A stretch of DNA of 12,581 nt from Paracoccaceae bacterium (lineage in GTDB: Bacteria; Pseudomonadota; Alphaproteobacteria; Rhodobacterales; Rhodobacteraceae). Below the pieces are notes generated by a model. It made no database searches. It was given only the letters and a program-made list of their open reading frames with translations, and had not been told where the DNA came from. The DNA lies in NCBI GenBank assembly GCA_002746395.1, contig NVXA01000003.1, positions 145,432-158,012 of the forward strand, written 5' to 3'. Below are positions 6,408 through 11,389 of the stretch, in pieces (within the stretch, counting starts at the first letter, position 1; every line of letters begins with the position of its first letter). A program made the translations under genes and the position numbers.

Positions 6408-7133
6408 TTAAACTACGAACTGGCCACCGTTTGCCGTCAAAGTCGATCCGGTAATAAAGCCGGCATCGTCGGATGCAAGGAACACTACACAACGTGCTAT
6501 CTCTTCGGGTTCGCCTAGGCGGCCAACCGGAATTTGAGGGATGATTTTCTCGTTGAGAACTTTTTCAGGCACGGCACGCACCATTTCGGTGCCGATATAC
6601 CCCGGGCAAATTGCGTTAACTGTGATGCCTTTGAACGCACCCTCTTGCGCCAAAGCCTTGGTGAAACCAAGGTCGCCAGCCTTTGCTGCGGAATAGTTAA
6701 CCTGTCCCATTTGACCCTTTTGACCGTTGATCGAACTGATGTTGATAATCCGCCCGAAGCTACGATCACGCATGCCAGTCCAAATCGGGTGCGTCATGTT
6801 GAAAACGCCCGATAGGTTGGTGTCGATCACTTCCTTCCAGCTTTGCGGGGTCATCTTGTGGAACATCCCGTCGCGCGTAATGCCTGCGTTGTTCACCAGC
6901 ACCTCGATCGGCCCAAGGTCGGCTTCGACCTTGGCAATGCCCGCCACGCATTCATCGTAATCCGCGACGGACCATTTGTAGGTCGCAATGCCGGTTTCTG
7001 CGGTAAACTTAGCGGCAGCTTCGTCATTGCCGGCATATGTTGCGCCGACAGTATAGCCTTCGTTTTTAAGTGCGGTGGAGATAGCCGCGCCTATGCCACG
7101 CGTGCCACCGGTAACTAATGCAATTCGTCCCAT
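6408..7133 (-). CDS. phbB: Acetoacetyl-CoA reductase (NADPH)
   Basis: A 241-residue short-chain dehydrogenase that reduces acetoacetyl-CoA to (R)-3-hydroxybutyryl-CoA, the monomer for polyhydroxybutyrate. Cofactor motif TGGTRGIG at residues 8-15, NNAG at 80-83, and the catalytic set Ser133, Tyr146 and Lys150 (YSAAK) are present. The family-specific stretch ISSINGQKGQMGQVNYSAAK separates it from the FabG ketoreductases. The C-terminus ends in FITGSTLTANGGQFVV. An AGGGGA ribosome site precedes ATG 7133. It lies 22 bases downstream of the thiolase gene in one operon that ends at the terminator near 6370. Confidence 0.95.
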   Translation of the reverse strand: MGRIALVTGGTRGIGAAISTALKNEGYTVGATYAGNDEAAAKFTAETGIATYKWSVADYDECVAGIAKVEADLGPIEVLVNNAGITRDGMFHKMTPQSWKEVIDTNLSGVFNMTHPIWTGMRDRSFGRIINISSINGQKGQMGQVNYSAAKAGDLGFTKALAQEGAFKGITVNAICPGYIGTEMVRAVPEKVLNEKIIPQIPVGRLGEPEEIARCVVFLASDDAGFITGSTLTANGGQFVV

Positions 7134-7155: not shown

Positions 7156-8331
7156 TCAGTCGCGCTCAAGGCACATGGCTACGCCCATACCGCCGCCGAT
7201 ACACAGCGTGGCAAGGCCTTTTTTCGCATCGCGTCGCTGCATTTCGAACAAGAGTGTGTTCAATATACGCGCACCGGACGCGCCGATCGGGTGGCCGACT
7301 GCAATCGCGCCACCGTTTACGTTAACAATTTCCGGGTTCCAGCCCATGTCTTTGTTGACGGCGCAAGCTTGTGCGGCAAAGGCCTCGTTCGCCTCGACCA
7401 GATCAAGTTCGCTTGCGTTCCAGCCGGCCTTTTCTAGCGCTTTGCGACTGGCATAAATTGGGCCAACGCCCATGATGGAAGGGTCAAGACCAACAGTTGC
7501 ATAGGATGCAATTCTCGCCATCGGTTTAATCCCGCGTTTGGCCGCGTTTTCTGCGCTCATCAGCAACGTCATCGCGGCCCCGTCGTTCAGGCCCGATGCG
7601 TTCGCCGCAGTGACAGAACCGTCCCTCGCAAATGCAGGGCGCAGTTTTTGCATGGCTTCCATGGTGGCGCCGTACCGAATGTATTCATCGCTATCGACGA
7701 CAATATCGCCTTTGCGGGTCTTAATGGTAAACGGCACGATCTCGTCAACGAACTTGCCAGCCTTTTGCGCCGCCTCGGCTTTGTTCTGCGAGGCGACAGC
7801 AAATGCGTCTTGCATCTCGCGATCAATCTCCCATTTTCCGGCAACATTTTCTGCCGTCGTACCCATGTGATAGTCATTGAAAGCATCCCAAAGCCCGTCT
7901 TTGACCATCGAGTCGATGAACTTCATATCACCCATCTTTTGACCCGACCGCAGGTTCGCGATATGTGGTGAAAGCGACATGTTTTCCTGCCCACCGGCCA
8001 CCACGATTTCAGCATCACCAAGCATGATGTGTTGCGCACCGAGCGCCACGGCCCGAAGGCCGGAACCACAAACCTGATTAATGCTCCAGGCGGCACTTTC
8101 AATCGGCAAACCCGCATTAATGTGCGCCTGACGCGCCGGGTTTTGTCCTTGACCAGCGGTTAATACTTGTCCGAGGATGGTTTCGGATACGTCCGCTGCA
8201 TCAACGCCCGCACGCTGCAAAACGGCCTTGATGGCGGCTGTGCCCAGATCATGCGCTGGTGTTTTTGCAAACGATCCCAGAAAACTCCCGACGGCGGTTC
8301 GTGCGGCAGAAGCAATTACGATATTGGTCAT
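7156..8331 (-). CDS. phbA: Acetyl-CoA C-acetyltransferase (beta-ketothiolase)
   Basis: A 391-residue biosynthetic thiolase condensing two acetyl-CoA into acetoacetyl-CoA, the first step of polyhydroxybutyrate synthesis; it acts in the cytosol as a tetramer in known homologues. Catalytic residues are visible: Cys88 in [11 protein letters not shown], His347 in [12 protein letters not shown] and Cys377 in [10 protein letters not shown], matching the spacing of the well-studied Zoogloea enzyme. An AAAGGA ribosome site lies seven bases before ATG 8331. It is followed after 22 bases by phbB, and preceded by a 120-base gap with a candidate promoter and palindrome that could be controlled by PhaR. 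Confidence 0.96.
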
Positions 8332-8451: not shown

Positions 8452-9681
8452 CTACAAGTTGCCGGTAAAGAAATCAGAAACGGGTTTCCATACGGTTTCC
8501 CGAGCCTTGGACCCGACGATCATCCCGACGTGCCCCGCATCAGGCGTAAGCAGTTTTGCATTAGGGATTTCTTTAGCCATGGCCGCCGCGACATCAAGTT
8601 GCGTAATGCTATCGCGCAACCCGCAGACGTGAAGCGTCGGCTGCTGAAGTCGGGATAAATCGACCGGCGTTTCGCGTAATTTCCAACTGCCGGCCGCGGT
8701 TGCATTGTTTAAGTTCCAGTCGATCAAAACGTCTTTGGCACTTGGCAGCGCAAGCGGCACCCCGTCGGCTAACCAATCCTCGATAGCCACGAAATGATTT
8801 GCGGCAGGGCTGTTCAAATCCATATTGTCCAGTTTGCGAAACTTCACGGCAGCTTGCATGGGGTTGATCAACGCAAATAGTTGTTGGAAAAGCTCTGTCG
8901 GAATCATCCCGAAAACATGCCCGATATTTTCGATCATTTCAGTGGCTTGAGACTTTGTTGCCACCGACCGCAAGGAAGCCGTAACGCCCTTGCTAGCGTC
9001 GAAATTCCATGGCGACCCGATGGTTGCGAAAGCGCCCACATCGGTGTTTCGAAGGGACAAGACGCCTGCGGCCAACGTGCCCCCCATACAATACCCCAAG
9101 ACCCCGACCGGCTTATTGGTTAGCCCGTTGGATACTGCAAGGGCAGGTAATAATCGCTGTGTGGTATAGGTATTCAAGCTAAATTCTCGCTCGGTGTCCG
9201 ACGGAATTCCCCAGTCTAACAATAACGGGCGCAGCCCTTGTGCGGCCAAATACCGAAGCAGTGAGCAGTTTTCGTTAAGGTCCAAAATATAGGCGCGGTT
9301 GATCAGTGAAGGGACCACAAGTATCGGCGGGCCATTGGGGTTTGTGGCCTCTGGGCAATGTCCATAATCAAGCAAACGGGAGGAGCCTTCTGACCATATC
9401 ACTGGTGGATCCGTGACCGCCCGTTTGTATGGATGTGCCTGCCATTTTTCCAACCCAGATAGCATTGCCCGTATGCGTGCAATTGCGGCGCGGTGAAGTG
9501 CGGGGGCGCTTAGATCGCCAATTGAGCTTGCTTGTTCAATTAGTTCTGGTTGCCACGTGAAATCTGCGGTGTCAGGGTTGGAGGCATTCGCAATGGCACT
9601 TTGGTATCCGGCTACCGCAGCACCCAAATGGAAGATTAGCGGTGATGGGTGACCCATCCTGTGTTGTGGGCTTTCAGTCAT
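8452..9681 (-). CDS. Short PhaC-like alpha/beta-hydrolase (polyhydroxyalkanoate synthase family)
   Basis: A 409-residue alpha/beta-hydrolase fold protein with the PHA-synthase type lipase box GYCMGGTL, in which cysteine (Cys198) replaces serine. Asp357 (GLRDSITQ) and His384 (DAGHVGM) complete the triad, and WNLNNATAAGSW resembles the conserved tryptophan segment of PHA synthases. VVPSLINRAYILDLNE aligns by eye with the IVPPWINKFYILDL region of class I enzymes. Known class I/II synthases are nearly 600 residues and class III PhaC about 355 with a partner subunit, so this is an intermediate short form; it may be a polymerase or a related thioester hydrolase. ATG 9681 overlaps a small upstream ORF by eight bases; an alternative in-frame ATG at 9711 would give 419 residues. 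Neither has a clear ribosome site, which favours coupling from the small ORF. Confidence 0.8.
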   Translation of the reverse strand: MTESPQHRMGHPSPLIFHLGAAVAGYQSAIANASNPDTADFTWQPELIEQASSIGDLSAPALHRAAIARIRAMLSGLEKWQAHPYKRAVTDPPVIWSEGSSRLLDYGHCPEATNPNGPPILVVPSLINRAYILDLNENCSLLRYLAAQGLRPLLLDWGIPSDTEREFSLNTYTTQRLLPALAVSNGLTNKPVGVLGYCMGGTLAAGVLSLRNTDVGAFATIGSPWNFDASKGVTASLRSVATKSQATEMIENIGHVFGMIPTELFQQLFALINPMQAAVKFRKLDNMDLNSPAANHFVAIEDWLADGVPLALPSAKDVLIDWNLNNATAAGSWKLRETPVDLSRLQQPTLHVCGLRDSITQLDVAAAMAKEIPNAKLLTPDAGHVGMIVGSKARETVWKPVSDFFTGNL

Positions 9682-9817
9682 CTTTATTTTGTGGTTTTTG
9701 AGCAGGGCCATTGGCGGCTAGCAGTCGAATGTTCTCTTCCCACAAGTCCAGATAGTGTTCTTCACGGCCCCCAATATGAGGTGTTTTGTCGTTTGAAGAG
9801 GGGGGATTCTGCGCCAT
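9674..9817 (-). CDS. Small ORF (47 aa) overlapping the PhaC-like start
   Basis: An open frame of 47 codons from ATG 9817 to TGA 9676-9674. An AAGG ribosome site lies six bases before the ATG; a second in-frame ATG at 9850 would add 11 residues. The product starts MAQNPPSSNDKTPHIGG, then has one predicted amphipathic helix, EEHYLDLWEENIRLLAANG, and a polar tail PAQKPQNKDD. Its stop falls inside the first codons of the PhaC-like gene (shared ATGACTGA), an eight-base overlap that implies translational coupling. I do not recognise a family. The helix with aromatic residues and a WEEN motif recalls the short amphipathic helices of PHA-synthase partners (PhaE/PhaR-type subunits, phasins), but that is inference. 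It could also be a detached N-terminal segment of the synthase, since a single frame change would fuse it to the next frame. Confidence 0.6.
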   Translation of the reverse strand: MAQNPPSSNDKTPHIGGREEHYLDLWEENIRLLAANGPAQKPQNKDD

Positions 9818-9879
9818 TTCATACCTTACATTCAATAATCCAGTGACCATAACATGGCACGGGATGTTCGCTCATGCGA

Positions 9880-9959: not shown

Positions 9960-10556
9960 ATGGCCGATAAAACCGATACAAACGAAGATACCGTTGTCAT
10001 CAAGAAGTATGCCAACCGGCGGTTATACAACACCCAGAAATCGAGCTATGTAACGCTAGACCACTTGGCCGAAATGGTGCGGGAGGGGCAGGACTTTGTG
10101 GTTATTGACGCGAAGTCCGGCGAGGATATTACACGATCCGTGTTGACTCAGATTATTTTCGAAGAGGAAAGCAAAGGGCATAACATGTTGCCTACTAAGT
10201 TTCTTCGCCAACTTATCAGCCTGTATGGGGATTCGGTTCAGGGATTTGTACCCGGATATCTCGAGGCTTCGATGGAAACGTTTACGAAAAATCAGGACGG
10301 TCTTCGTGAGCAGATGCAGGGCGCTATAGCGGGAAACCCTGCGATGGCCGGATTCGAGGCATTGGCGCGCCAAAACATGGATTGGTTTGACAACGCAATG
10401 CGAATGTTTACGCCAGCGGTCAGTGGTGCAACTGACAAGGCTGCGGCCACAACGACTGATACCAATGATGATGCATCGGATGTCGAGCTTGGTGACTTGA
10501 AGGCGCAGCTTGCCCAGATGCAGGACCAGCTTAGCAAGCTTGTGGATAAATCGTAA
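9960..10556 (+). CDS. phaR: Polyhydroxyalkanoate synthesis repressor PhaR
   Basis: A 198-residue transcription regulator that in characterised homologues binds both DNA and nascent PHA, repressing phasin genes and its own gene until polymer appears. The N-terminal PHB/PHA accumulation DNA-binding domain (about residues 11-70) begins VVIKKYANRRLYNTQKSSYV and continues to IIFEEE; a second conserved region (about 75-115) follows with LPTKFLRQLISLYGDSVQGF. The C-terminus has a low-complexity Thr/Ala/Asp linker and a short coiled coil, LKAQLAQMQDQLSKLVDKS. The frame opens earlier at 9927, but ATG 9960 has an AGAAGGG site at good spacing and gives the usual N-terminus, so I chose it. It is divergent from the PhaC-like gene; the stop is two bases from that of the opposing EAL gene. 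Confidence 0.95.
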   Translation: MADKTDTNEDTVVIKKYANRRLYNTQKSSYVTLDHLAEMVREGQDFVVIDAKSGEDITRSVLTQIIFEEESKGHNMLPTKFLRQLISLYGDSVQGFVPGYLEASMETFTKNQDGLREQMQGAIAGNPAMAGFEALARQNMDWFDNAMRMFTPAVSGATDKAAATTTDTNDDASDVELGDLKAQLAQMQDQLSKLVDKS

Positions 10557-10558
10557 TA

Positions 10559-11389
10559 CTATCCCGCGACTTTTTGATCCAGTTCCGGTCTTTGAAACGG
10601 AGCGATTGGTTGGGCAGTTGGTTCGCCGATCAGGTACCCCTGCAAGCAGTCGATGCCCAACTTTGCGGCCATTTCAGCCTCCCCATCGGTTTCAACGAAT
10701 TCGGCTACGGTCACCATGTCGAAGTGCTTGCTGATGTCGATTAAGGCCTGAACTAATACCTGATTATCTTTGTCGTAGCAAAGGTCGCGGATGAATAGTC
10801 CGTCGATTTTGACGAAGTCGAACAGGAAGTCTTTGAAATACCGGAAGGATGTCGCGCCGGTTCCGAAATCATCCAGCGCGATACTGCAATGTTTGCGGCG
10901 AACGCGGTGCATAAAAGCGGTGGTCAATTCGACATCAGACATAGCCGCCCCTTCGGTGATTTCGATAATCAGACGTTCGCAAGTATCAGTGGCGGCAGAT
11001 TCCAGAATGGTCAGCCAACCGGAATCCTGCATCGAAAGTACGCTCATATTGATAGAGAGGCGGATATCCGGGGTGTCATCCAACCGTTTCAGGGCCAAGC
11101 GTAAAATTTGACGATCCAATCGAGTTCCAAGGGCCGTATTTTCAACGAACGGCATAAATTGCCCAGCAGATATTATTGCTCCCTCTGGCATTTTTATGCG
11201 GGCCAACCCCTCGTAAAAAGCCACGAAGTTGTTTGTGCCCGAGCGCACGATGGGTTGGTAGAACAACTCCAACCGGTTTTCATTCATAGCGTTATGAACG
11301 CGAGCGGTTTCGAGGTCAGCCAGCGTGTTTGACATCACGGCAGGGATATCAGCATTTCTAGAAATCTGATTATTGGCACTGGCCATCAT
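10559..11389 (-). CDS. EAL-domain cyclic-di-GMP phosphodiesterase
   Basis: A 276-residue protein made of a single EAL domain (about residues 35-265) with no sensor, GGDEF or membrane segment visible, so it is probably cytosolic. It should hydrolyse c-di-GMP to pGpG. Residues matching the metal and catalytic positions of active enzymes are present: Glu60 in YEGLAR (EGL in place of EAL), Asn114 in SINMS, the EITE motif (143-146), DDFGTG (173-178), Lys194 in VKIDG, Glu230 in AEFVE and Gln250 in QGYLIGEP. Activity is therefore likely, although not shown. Two consecutive ATG codons (11389, 11386) follow a strong AGGGGAGGGA site. The 191-base upstream gap holds a perfect LexA-type box 75 bases before the start. 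Confidence 0.93.
   Translation of the reverse strand: MMASANNQISRNADIPAVMSNTLADLETARVHNAMNENRLELFYQPIVRSGTNNFVAFYEGLARIKMPEGAIISAGQFMPFVENTALGTRLDRQILRLALKRLDDTPDIRLSINMSVLSMQDSGWLTILESAATDTCERLIIEITEGAAMSDVELTTAFMHRVRRKHCSIALDDFGTGATSFRYFKDFLFDFVKIDGLFIRDLCYDKDNQVLVQALIDISKHFDMVTVAEFVETDGEAEMAAKLGIDCLQGYLIGEPTAQPIAPFQRPELDQKVAG

Follow-up and report, generated by a model that had tools for sequence, protein, structure and literature searches.

Bacillus PhaR, a protein of about 20 kDa, partners the short PhaC of class IV PHA synthases. PhaE (PF09712) is encoded directly 5′ of a short, class III-like phaC, and combines a tryptophan-containing helix with a C-terminal coil. The Cupriavidus necator protein PhaM (NF043076) is a PhaC activator with a basic tail; it serves a class I PhaC and has a mass of 32 kDa, according to excerpts of PMC9049629, and the synthase classes rest partly on subunit composition, as stated in excerpts of PMC5509742. 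For R. rubrum, excerpts identify phaC1 as Rru_A0275 (PMC4026134) and PhaR as Rru_A0276 (PMC4958253, PMC7109303); these numbers are consecutive, and thus leave no locus number between the two genes. The short PhaC of Azospirillum and R. rubrum is treated as a single-gene synthase in the literature excerpts at hand, which mention no partner.

The locus described here lies in the window, which is the whole analysed stretch of 12,581 nucleotides from a Paracoccaceae bacterium (assembly GCA_002746395.1, contig NVXA01000003.1). Its short phaC shares the synthase family of the Azospirillum gene and, judged by a primer site, that of the R. rubrum gene, as well as the phaC-phaA-phaB cluster beside phaR, and is directly preceded by a 47-codon ORF. 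As with PhaE, a gene directly 5′ of a short, class III-like phaC belongs to a family with a tryptophan-containing helix and a C-terminal coil, and probably encodes a synthase partner. The family differs from PhaE in size (35-207 aa, compared to a 311-position model), in the lack of a family match, and in the out-of-frame overlap of about 90-260 nt that most members have with phaC. The proposed role, partner of a short PhaC, is that of Bacillus PhaR, which is unrelated to the PhaR repressor adjoining the window phaC. Long forms of the family share with PhaM the basic tail and a similar-looking coil.

The small gene and its genomic context

The minus-strand ORF 9817..9674 is a real, conserved protein-coding gene. 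It extends from an ATG at 9817..9815 to a stop at 9676..9674, and translates to the 47-residue product MAQNPPSSNDKTPHIGGREEHYLDLWEENIRLLAANGPAQKPQNKDD. The coordinates (Table 1) confirm the original prediction of an ORF with its own AAGG site, on the same strand as and directly 5′ of the PhaC-like gene, whose ATG its stop overlaps by eight bases, ATGACTGA; the overlap of 8 nt follows from the position of the phaC ATG (9681..9679) relative to the small-ORF stop. A second in-frame phaC ATG corresponds to PhaC residue 9. An alternative upstream in-frame ATG of the small ORF would give 58 aa, and such 58-aa models make up four of the eight close relatives in the public protein collection (the window's own protein included). 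The AAGG-spaced ATG is the start common to most of the genus, and a ribosome site (AAGG, AGGG, GAGG or GGAGG) occurs at similar spacing in 7 of the 9 same-genus copies (L001-L005, L007, L008). Pfam and NCBIfam scans of the small protein returned no family match, and an Rfam scan of the window at gathering scores returned no RNA element.

Table 1. Features of the small gene-phaC locus in the window.
Feature	Position	Strand	Basis
phaB-like acetoacetyl-CoA reductase	6408..7133	-	TIGR01829 above cut-off; downstream of phaC
phaA-like acetyl-CoA acetyltransferase	7156..8331	-	Pfam/NCBIfam scans; downstream of phaC
Short PHA synthase PhaC (predicted), 409 aa, likely client of the small protein	8452..9681	-	PF00561 and PF07167 above cut-off
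Stop/start overlap ATGACTGA, 8 nt, small gene/phaC	9674..9681	-	sequence; probable termination-reinitiation coupling
47-codon gene, putatively accessory, short form of the family	9674..9817	-	sequence; conserved 5′ of phaC, pN/pS 0.41
Amphipathic W-helix REEHYLDLWEENIRLLAANG, 20 residues, part common to the family	9707..9766	-	pN/pS 0.19; motif HMM
AAGG ribosome site of the small gene	9824..9827	-	sequence
phaR repressor, divergent	9960..10556	+	TIGR01848 above cut-off

Nine same-genus copies (the window and eight relatives with contigs reaching upstream) were compared for selection. The pN/pS of the small ORF was 0.41 overall and 0.19 in the 20-residue LWEEN helix, compared to 1.0 and 1.3 for the two shifted frames, which indicates that the ORF is under purifying selection. 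It had been proposed that a true gene would be kept at this position in relatives and show an excess of synonymous change, and both were found: the ORF is retained 5′ of related phaC genes, and the pN/pS values give the expected bias. Relatives in which the region is read as one continuous frame with phaC had been named as contrary evidence. None was found in either locus set with the motif HMM at E 1 or better in the PhaC frame, where the sole match at this level (L282, E 0.85) is an ORF that is phaC itself.

On the minus strand the order is small ORF, phaC, phaA and phaB, with phaR divergent; the four genes probably form a single operon. Linkage of phaC with phaA, phaB and phaR is likewise present in Azospirillum. 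The ORF after phaR (10559-11389, minus strand) looks EAL-domain-like by eye.

The best-scoring PHA synthase model for the window PhaC is that of class III (TIGR01836; E 4.7e-42), with 144.2 bits, below the cut-off of 365.3 bits. The protein contains a GYCMGG box (G-x-C-x-G-G), and Cys198, Asp357, and His384 are invariant in 58 aligned rows; we take these residues to fill the catalytic triad roles, consistent with the literature on PHA synthases. The AlphaFold2 model (pLDDT 91.4) has an N-terminal helix at residues 15-33, and the best 15 PDB matches in a structure search with it were all PHA synthase chains (TM-score by query 0.54-0.66). By triad, box and fold, the PhaC-like protein is thus predicted to be a PHA synthase. 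The window's 2.6 Mb assembly encodes a second PhaC-like frame of 621 codons elsewhere, and showed no PF09712 PhaE match. The phaC of one same-genus relative, L014, is broken by an in-frame TGA and was found in pieces, reflecting either a pseudogene or an assembly error.

Distribution of the family

A first set of 105 short-phaC loci (25 + 80) yielded 96 distinct loci with upstream DNA, after L006, L010, L034, and L059, which begin at a contig edge, and five duplicates were left out. A motif HMM built from 33 motif pieces (33 seed loci) detected an ORF 5′ of phaC in 85 of the 96 loci at E 3 or better, a cut chosen after the list was seen, and in 52 of 63 when the seed loci were omitted. The first match off the expected place, among 10,068 six-frame ORFs, had an E of 4.1; the window's own ORF scored 0.025, and weak members lie close to the cut-off. 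A related motif was visible by eye in L019, L022, L024, L042, and L048, the motif region of L071 is broken by unknown bases, and L018, L025, L044, L045, and L050 had no motif by HMM or by eye.

A second survey sampled the class as a whole, and found this type of PhaC in 118 of 289 genomes. The place upstream was examined in 110 of the 118, excluding G364, G337, G772, G424, and G788, as well as G048, G049, and G055, which are L025, L018, and L024 of the first set, have no HMM motif match, and were not recounted. The motif was present 5′ of phaC in 83 of the 110 loci at E 0.01 or better, with the first off-target match at E 0.37; of the 83 matches, 81 share one frame relative to phaC and 79 have a long overlap, and motif and coil occur in one ORF at 73 loci. 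Eleven of the 110 loci also occur in the first set, so that the two sets are not wholly independent; without them the motif was found in 75 of 99. A looser pattern, picked afterwards, added 15 loci, including the window. The remaining 12 of the 110 had no motif by HMM or looser pattern (one is cut by a contig end and two have a coil match). At family level, short-phaC loci carried the motif in 11 of 18 cases at E 0.005 or better, or in 7 of 12 without six from the first set.

Neither the 14 class I phaC loci (best E 2.0) nor the 33 PhaE loci (best E 1.7) gave a convincing match to the same HMM. Within the loci searched, the small gene occurs only beside this kind of PhaC. Ten long forms compared with Pfam and NCBIfam likewise reached no model's cut-off. 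The small gene is the short form of a family that is widespread in alphaproteobacteria and is matched by no Pfam or NCBIfam model. The original suggestion of a new tiny partner variant is supported as far as a conserved, specifically positioned gene is concerned, and is extended in that the window protein is the short form of a family whose usual members have 100-207 aa.

The absence of the small gene from some short-phaC loci implies that the gene is dispensable to the synthase in some lineages. An intact short phaC without the small gene was observed in L044, L194 (the same locus as L044), L201, L045, and L050. PhaC branch lengths are 1.13-1.69 in L045, L050, L018, and L025, compared to a median of 0.37, as if PhaC had changed after loss of a partner; the effect is much less in L044 (0.55).

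Short and long forms

The end of the small ORF shows a bimodal distribution over the 85 loci when measured from a conserved proline codon close to the start of phaC. In the short form (21 loci) the ORF ends 13-53 nt before this codon, whereas in the long form (64 loci) it ends 50-233 nt after it. Measured from the latest possible phaC start, the long overlap spans 92 nt in L108 and 134-257 nt in the other 63 loci; among the 20 short-form loci listed, the overlap is 8 nt in nine and 4 nt in six. With the nearest plausible ATG taken as the start, long forms have 100-207 aa (median 141) and short forms 35-72 aa.

The long form consists of a W-helix, a linker, a coiled coil, and a basic tail. An alignment of 54 selected long forms shows no variation at the first-helix tryptophan or at one arginine in the coil. 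An AlphaFold2 model of one long form (mean pLDDT 71, pTM 0.29) predicts helices at residues 7-27, 29-57, and 85-108, with ten-residue pLDDT averages of 96 (first helix) and 91 (coil), and a disordered linker and tail. The last 20 residues have a net charge of +3 or more in 54 of the 64 long forms, whereas the short-form median is 0. The window protein corresponds to the first helix only, and has neither coil nor basic tail.

A tree of 95 of the 96 PhaC proteins (L014 was dropped as too short) placed 18 of 20 short-form rows in one group, mainly from the window's family (support 92/71), and two Sneathiella short-form rows inside the long group (support 98/96). This nesting indicates that the coil was lost secondarily in Sneathiella; the root of the tree is not fixed, and neither is the direction of change in the window's family. 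Sneathiella and, separately, the window's relatives thus have the helix alone and overlaps of a few bases. In L108 (about 2197-2640), the stop of the small ORF falls right before the coil, and coil-like sequence continues in frame past it, which could represent an intermediate between the two forms or a sequence error.

Dual coding across the phaC start

The last part of the long form is encoded out of frame inside phaC, over about 92-257 nt. Synonymous divergence of phaC was compared between the overlap and the rest of the gene in pairs drawn from 37 chosen loci in ten groups. It was lower in the overlap in 48 of 50 pairs and in all eight long-form groups (34/36, 3/3, 1/1, 1/1, 6/6, 1/1, 1/1, and 1/1 pairs); pairs within a group are not independent, so that the eight groups are the better count. 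Two control groups without overlap, for which the first 52 codons after the same conserved proline were used, behaved in the opposite way, with lower values in only 4 of 21 and 0 of 6 pairs.

In a second approach, the phaC codons of the overlap were swapped for synonyms drawn from the gene's own usage, in 100 replicates. The real coil outscored all 100 randomisations in each of the 30 test loci of the first set (31 loci served for training, and neither group contained L021, L063, or L108); in the class sample it did so in 66 of 73 loci. In the seven exceptions the real score was reached by 1, 1, 2, 3, 10, 24, and 31 of 100 randomisations; at most three of the 73 loci (L190, L202, L210) also belong to the first set, and none of them is among the exceptions. 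The coil is thus not a by-product of the PhaC sequence. Between 16 and 98 of the 100 randomised frames were free of stops, and an open frame alone is weak proof. Together, codon randomisation and synonymous divergence make it well supported that the long form and the start of phaC constitute an out-of-frame overlapping gene pair, widely conserved in bacteria.

Proposed function of the small protein

By analogy with PhaE or PhaM, to neither of which it is recognisably related, we infer that the small protein is a PhaC-binding accessory peptide. It is likely that the 47-codon ORF, as the first gene of the small gene-phaC-phaA-phaB cluster, specifies a pared-down accessory subunit for the short PHA synthase of alphaproteobacteria. 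The W-helix would dock on PhaC, or might aid PhaC dimerisation or chain start, and the docked helix would activate or stabilise the synthase, as reported for PhaE, Bacillus PhaR, and PhaM. In the long form, the coil might oligomerise the protein, and the basic tail may anchor the complex at the granule or nucleoid; the window's lineage would have retained the helix alone. A broader proposal, which we favour with caution, is that about one third of the sampled alphaproteobacterial genomes encode a two-component class of PHA synthase with a W-helix subunit, of which the 47-residue protein shows the working part, the helix alone. Under this proposal, the subunit tends to escape annotation because its coding frame crosses the phaC start in a different register.

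A role in positioning granules, without contact with catalysis, as in a phasin-like or PhaM-like granule or nucleoid protein, would be compatible with the amphipathic helix and with the basic tail of the 54 long forms, and PhaM itself combines synthase binding with a basic DNA-binding tail (excerpts of PMC9049629). We regard this as unlikely, since the short form has neither tail nor coil and yet its helix stays fixed beside phaC, and since the window protein has no phasin or PhaM match. Among ten long forms none exceeded the cut-off; only L107 matched NF043076, at a chance-level 13.5 bits (E 0.04; cut-off 38 bits).

Translation of phaC

The small ORF might instead be a leader, a translational device that brings ribosomes to the phaC start and whose product is incidental. 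No Shine-Dalgarno-like pairing was found at the window phaC ATG (computed energy +2.0), and none of the nine same-genus phaC starts reached -4 kcal/mol, compared to 258 of 1000 random positions, bearing out the earlier remark that the PhaC-like gene lacks a clear ribosome site. Measured in this way, the start of the small gene itself showed only mild enrichment (9 of 21 short-form loci, 24 of 64 long-form loci). The missing site at phaC, together with overlaps of 8 or 4 nt, is what a leader would predict, and phaC translation is probably coupled to the small ORF in the window's genus, the one genus from which the Shine-Dalgarno evidence for coupling comes. Ribosomes ending the small ORF would restart on phaC via ATGACTGA, and coupled translation would yield both proteins together, in ratio.

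Across short-form loci a good ribosome site at phaC was found in 6 of 20. At long-form loci, phaC had its own site at -5 or better in 31 of 64, compared to 191 of 1000 random positions, and starts far 5′ of the small stop, so that such coupling would be a short-form trait. With the long-form stop 92-257 nt inside phaC even from the latest possible start, termination-reinitiation cannot serve the phaC start. Moreover, the helix sequence itself is conserved (pN/pS 0.19), and is so across families, so that a purely translational role is decidedly improbable.

Relation to known synthase proteins

An extremely diverged PhaE, which would make this a true class III synthase, would account for the E-C gene order, the W motif and C-terminal coil of both proteins, the best score of PhaC to the class III model, and an hhalign single-comparison E of 6e-4. 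The corresponding alignment, made with a profile from which L021, L023, L063, and L108 were left out, covers 34 columns at a probability of 28%, with the W motifs out of register in the best alignment. Neither the window protein nor the ten long forms matched PF09712 or other PhaE models, and the PhaC score of 144 bits stands against a cut-off of 365. Genomes with PhaE numbered 54 of 299 across the phylum, including a single one from the window's family, and PF09712 matched in 3 of 142 class genomes, the window's genome not among them. Given this distribution, the profile probability, and the silence of the motif HMM at 33 PhaE loci, membership of PhaE was rejected, and divergence from it is very improbable. 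The Pfam and NCBIfam scans also gave no Bacillus PhaR-type match, in libraries where the presence of such a model is unconfirmed.

The suggestion that the ORF is an N-terminal piece split off from a longer (class I) synthase, with which its place directly before phaC would agree, was not borne out and was rejected as having virtually no likelihood: the motif had no convincing match at the 14 class I loci, the window PhaC already has its own N-terminal helix, and no fusion was found at the loci of either set or among the 120 listed PhaC relatives, all of 337-444 aa, of the 4930 found by the synthase profile.

Evidence from R. rubrum and implications

R. rubrum PhaC1 appears, by a published primer site only, to belong to this synthase family. 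The primer encodes VEDWLN and has 143 sites with four or fewer mismatches in the examined loci, repeat copies counted; a second R. rubrum primer has one site only, with four mismatches. Overexpression of phaC1 increased PHA about 1.4-fold (excerpts of PMC4026134), and PhaC1 was reported as more active than PhaC2, with the phaC1 transcript undetectable under the tested conditions (excerpts of PMC9999600). As far as these excerpts go, the R. rubrum data argue that the synthase does not strictly need a partner, provided that the small gene did not accompany phaC1, and that the role of such a partner in this species is not large. Lineages without the gene likewise speak against a strict need of PhaC for its partner.

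No small gene or subunit at this place was found in the literature excerpts covered, which do not include the primary gene studies of R. rubrum and A. brasilense. If many short alphaproteobacterial synthases do have an accessory subunit, single-protein studies of them, R. rubrum PhaC1 among them, may have been done with only part of the enzyme. A 47-residue activator, if real, would give bioplastic engineers a convenient component and offer a compact model of how accessory subunits switch PhaC on, and the long forms offer an overlapping gene pair for which lineages naturally without the overlapped domain exist.

The tables of seven Azospirillum plasmid records, which are known to be incomplete, annotate phaR and phaC and list no gene for the small protein. 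A search with one long-form query returned 28 predicted proteins, a number that is only an indication beside the 4930 synthases, since query and synthase profile differ in reach; one of the 28 was named by NCBI, as "hypothetical protein". Two records titled Oceanobacillus (L043) and Nitrosovibrio (L100) contain a typical alphaproteobacterial locus, and their titles may be wrong.
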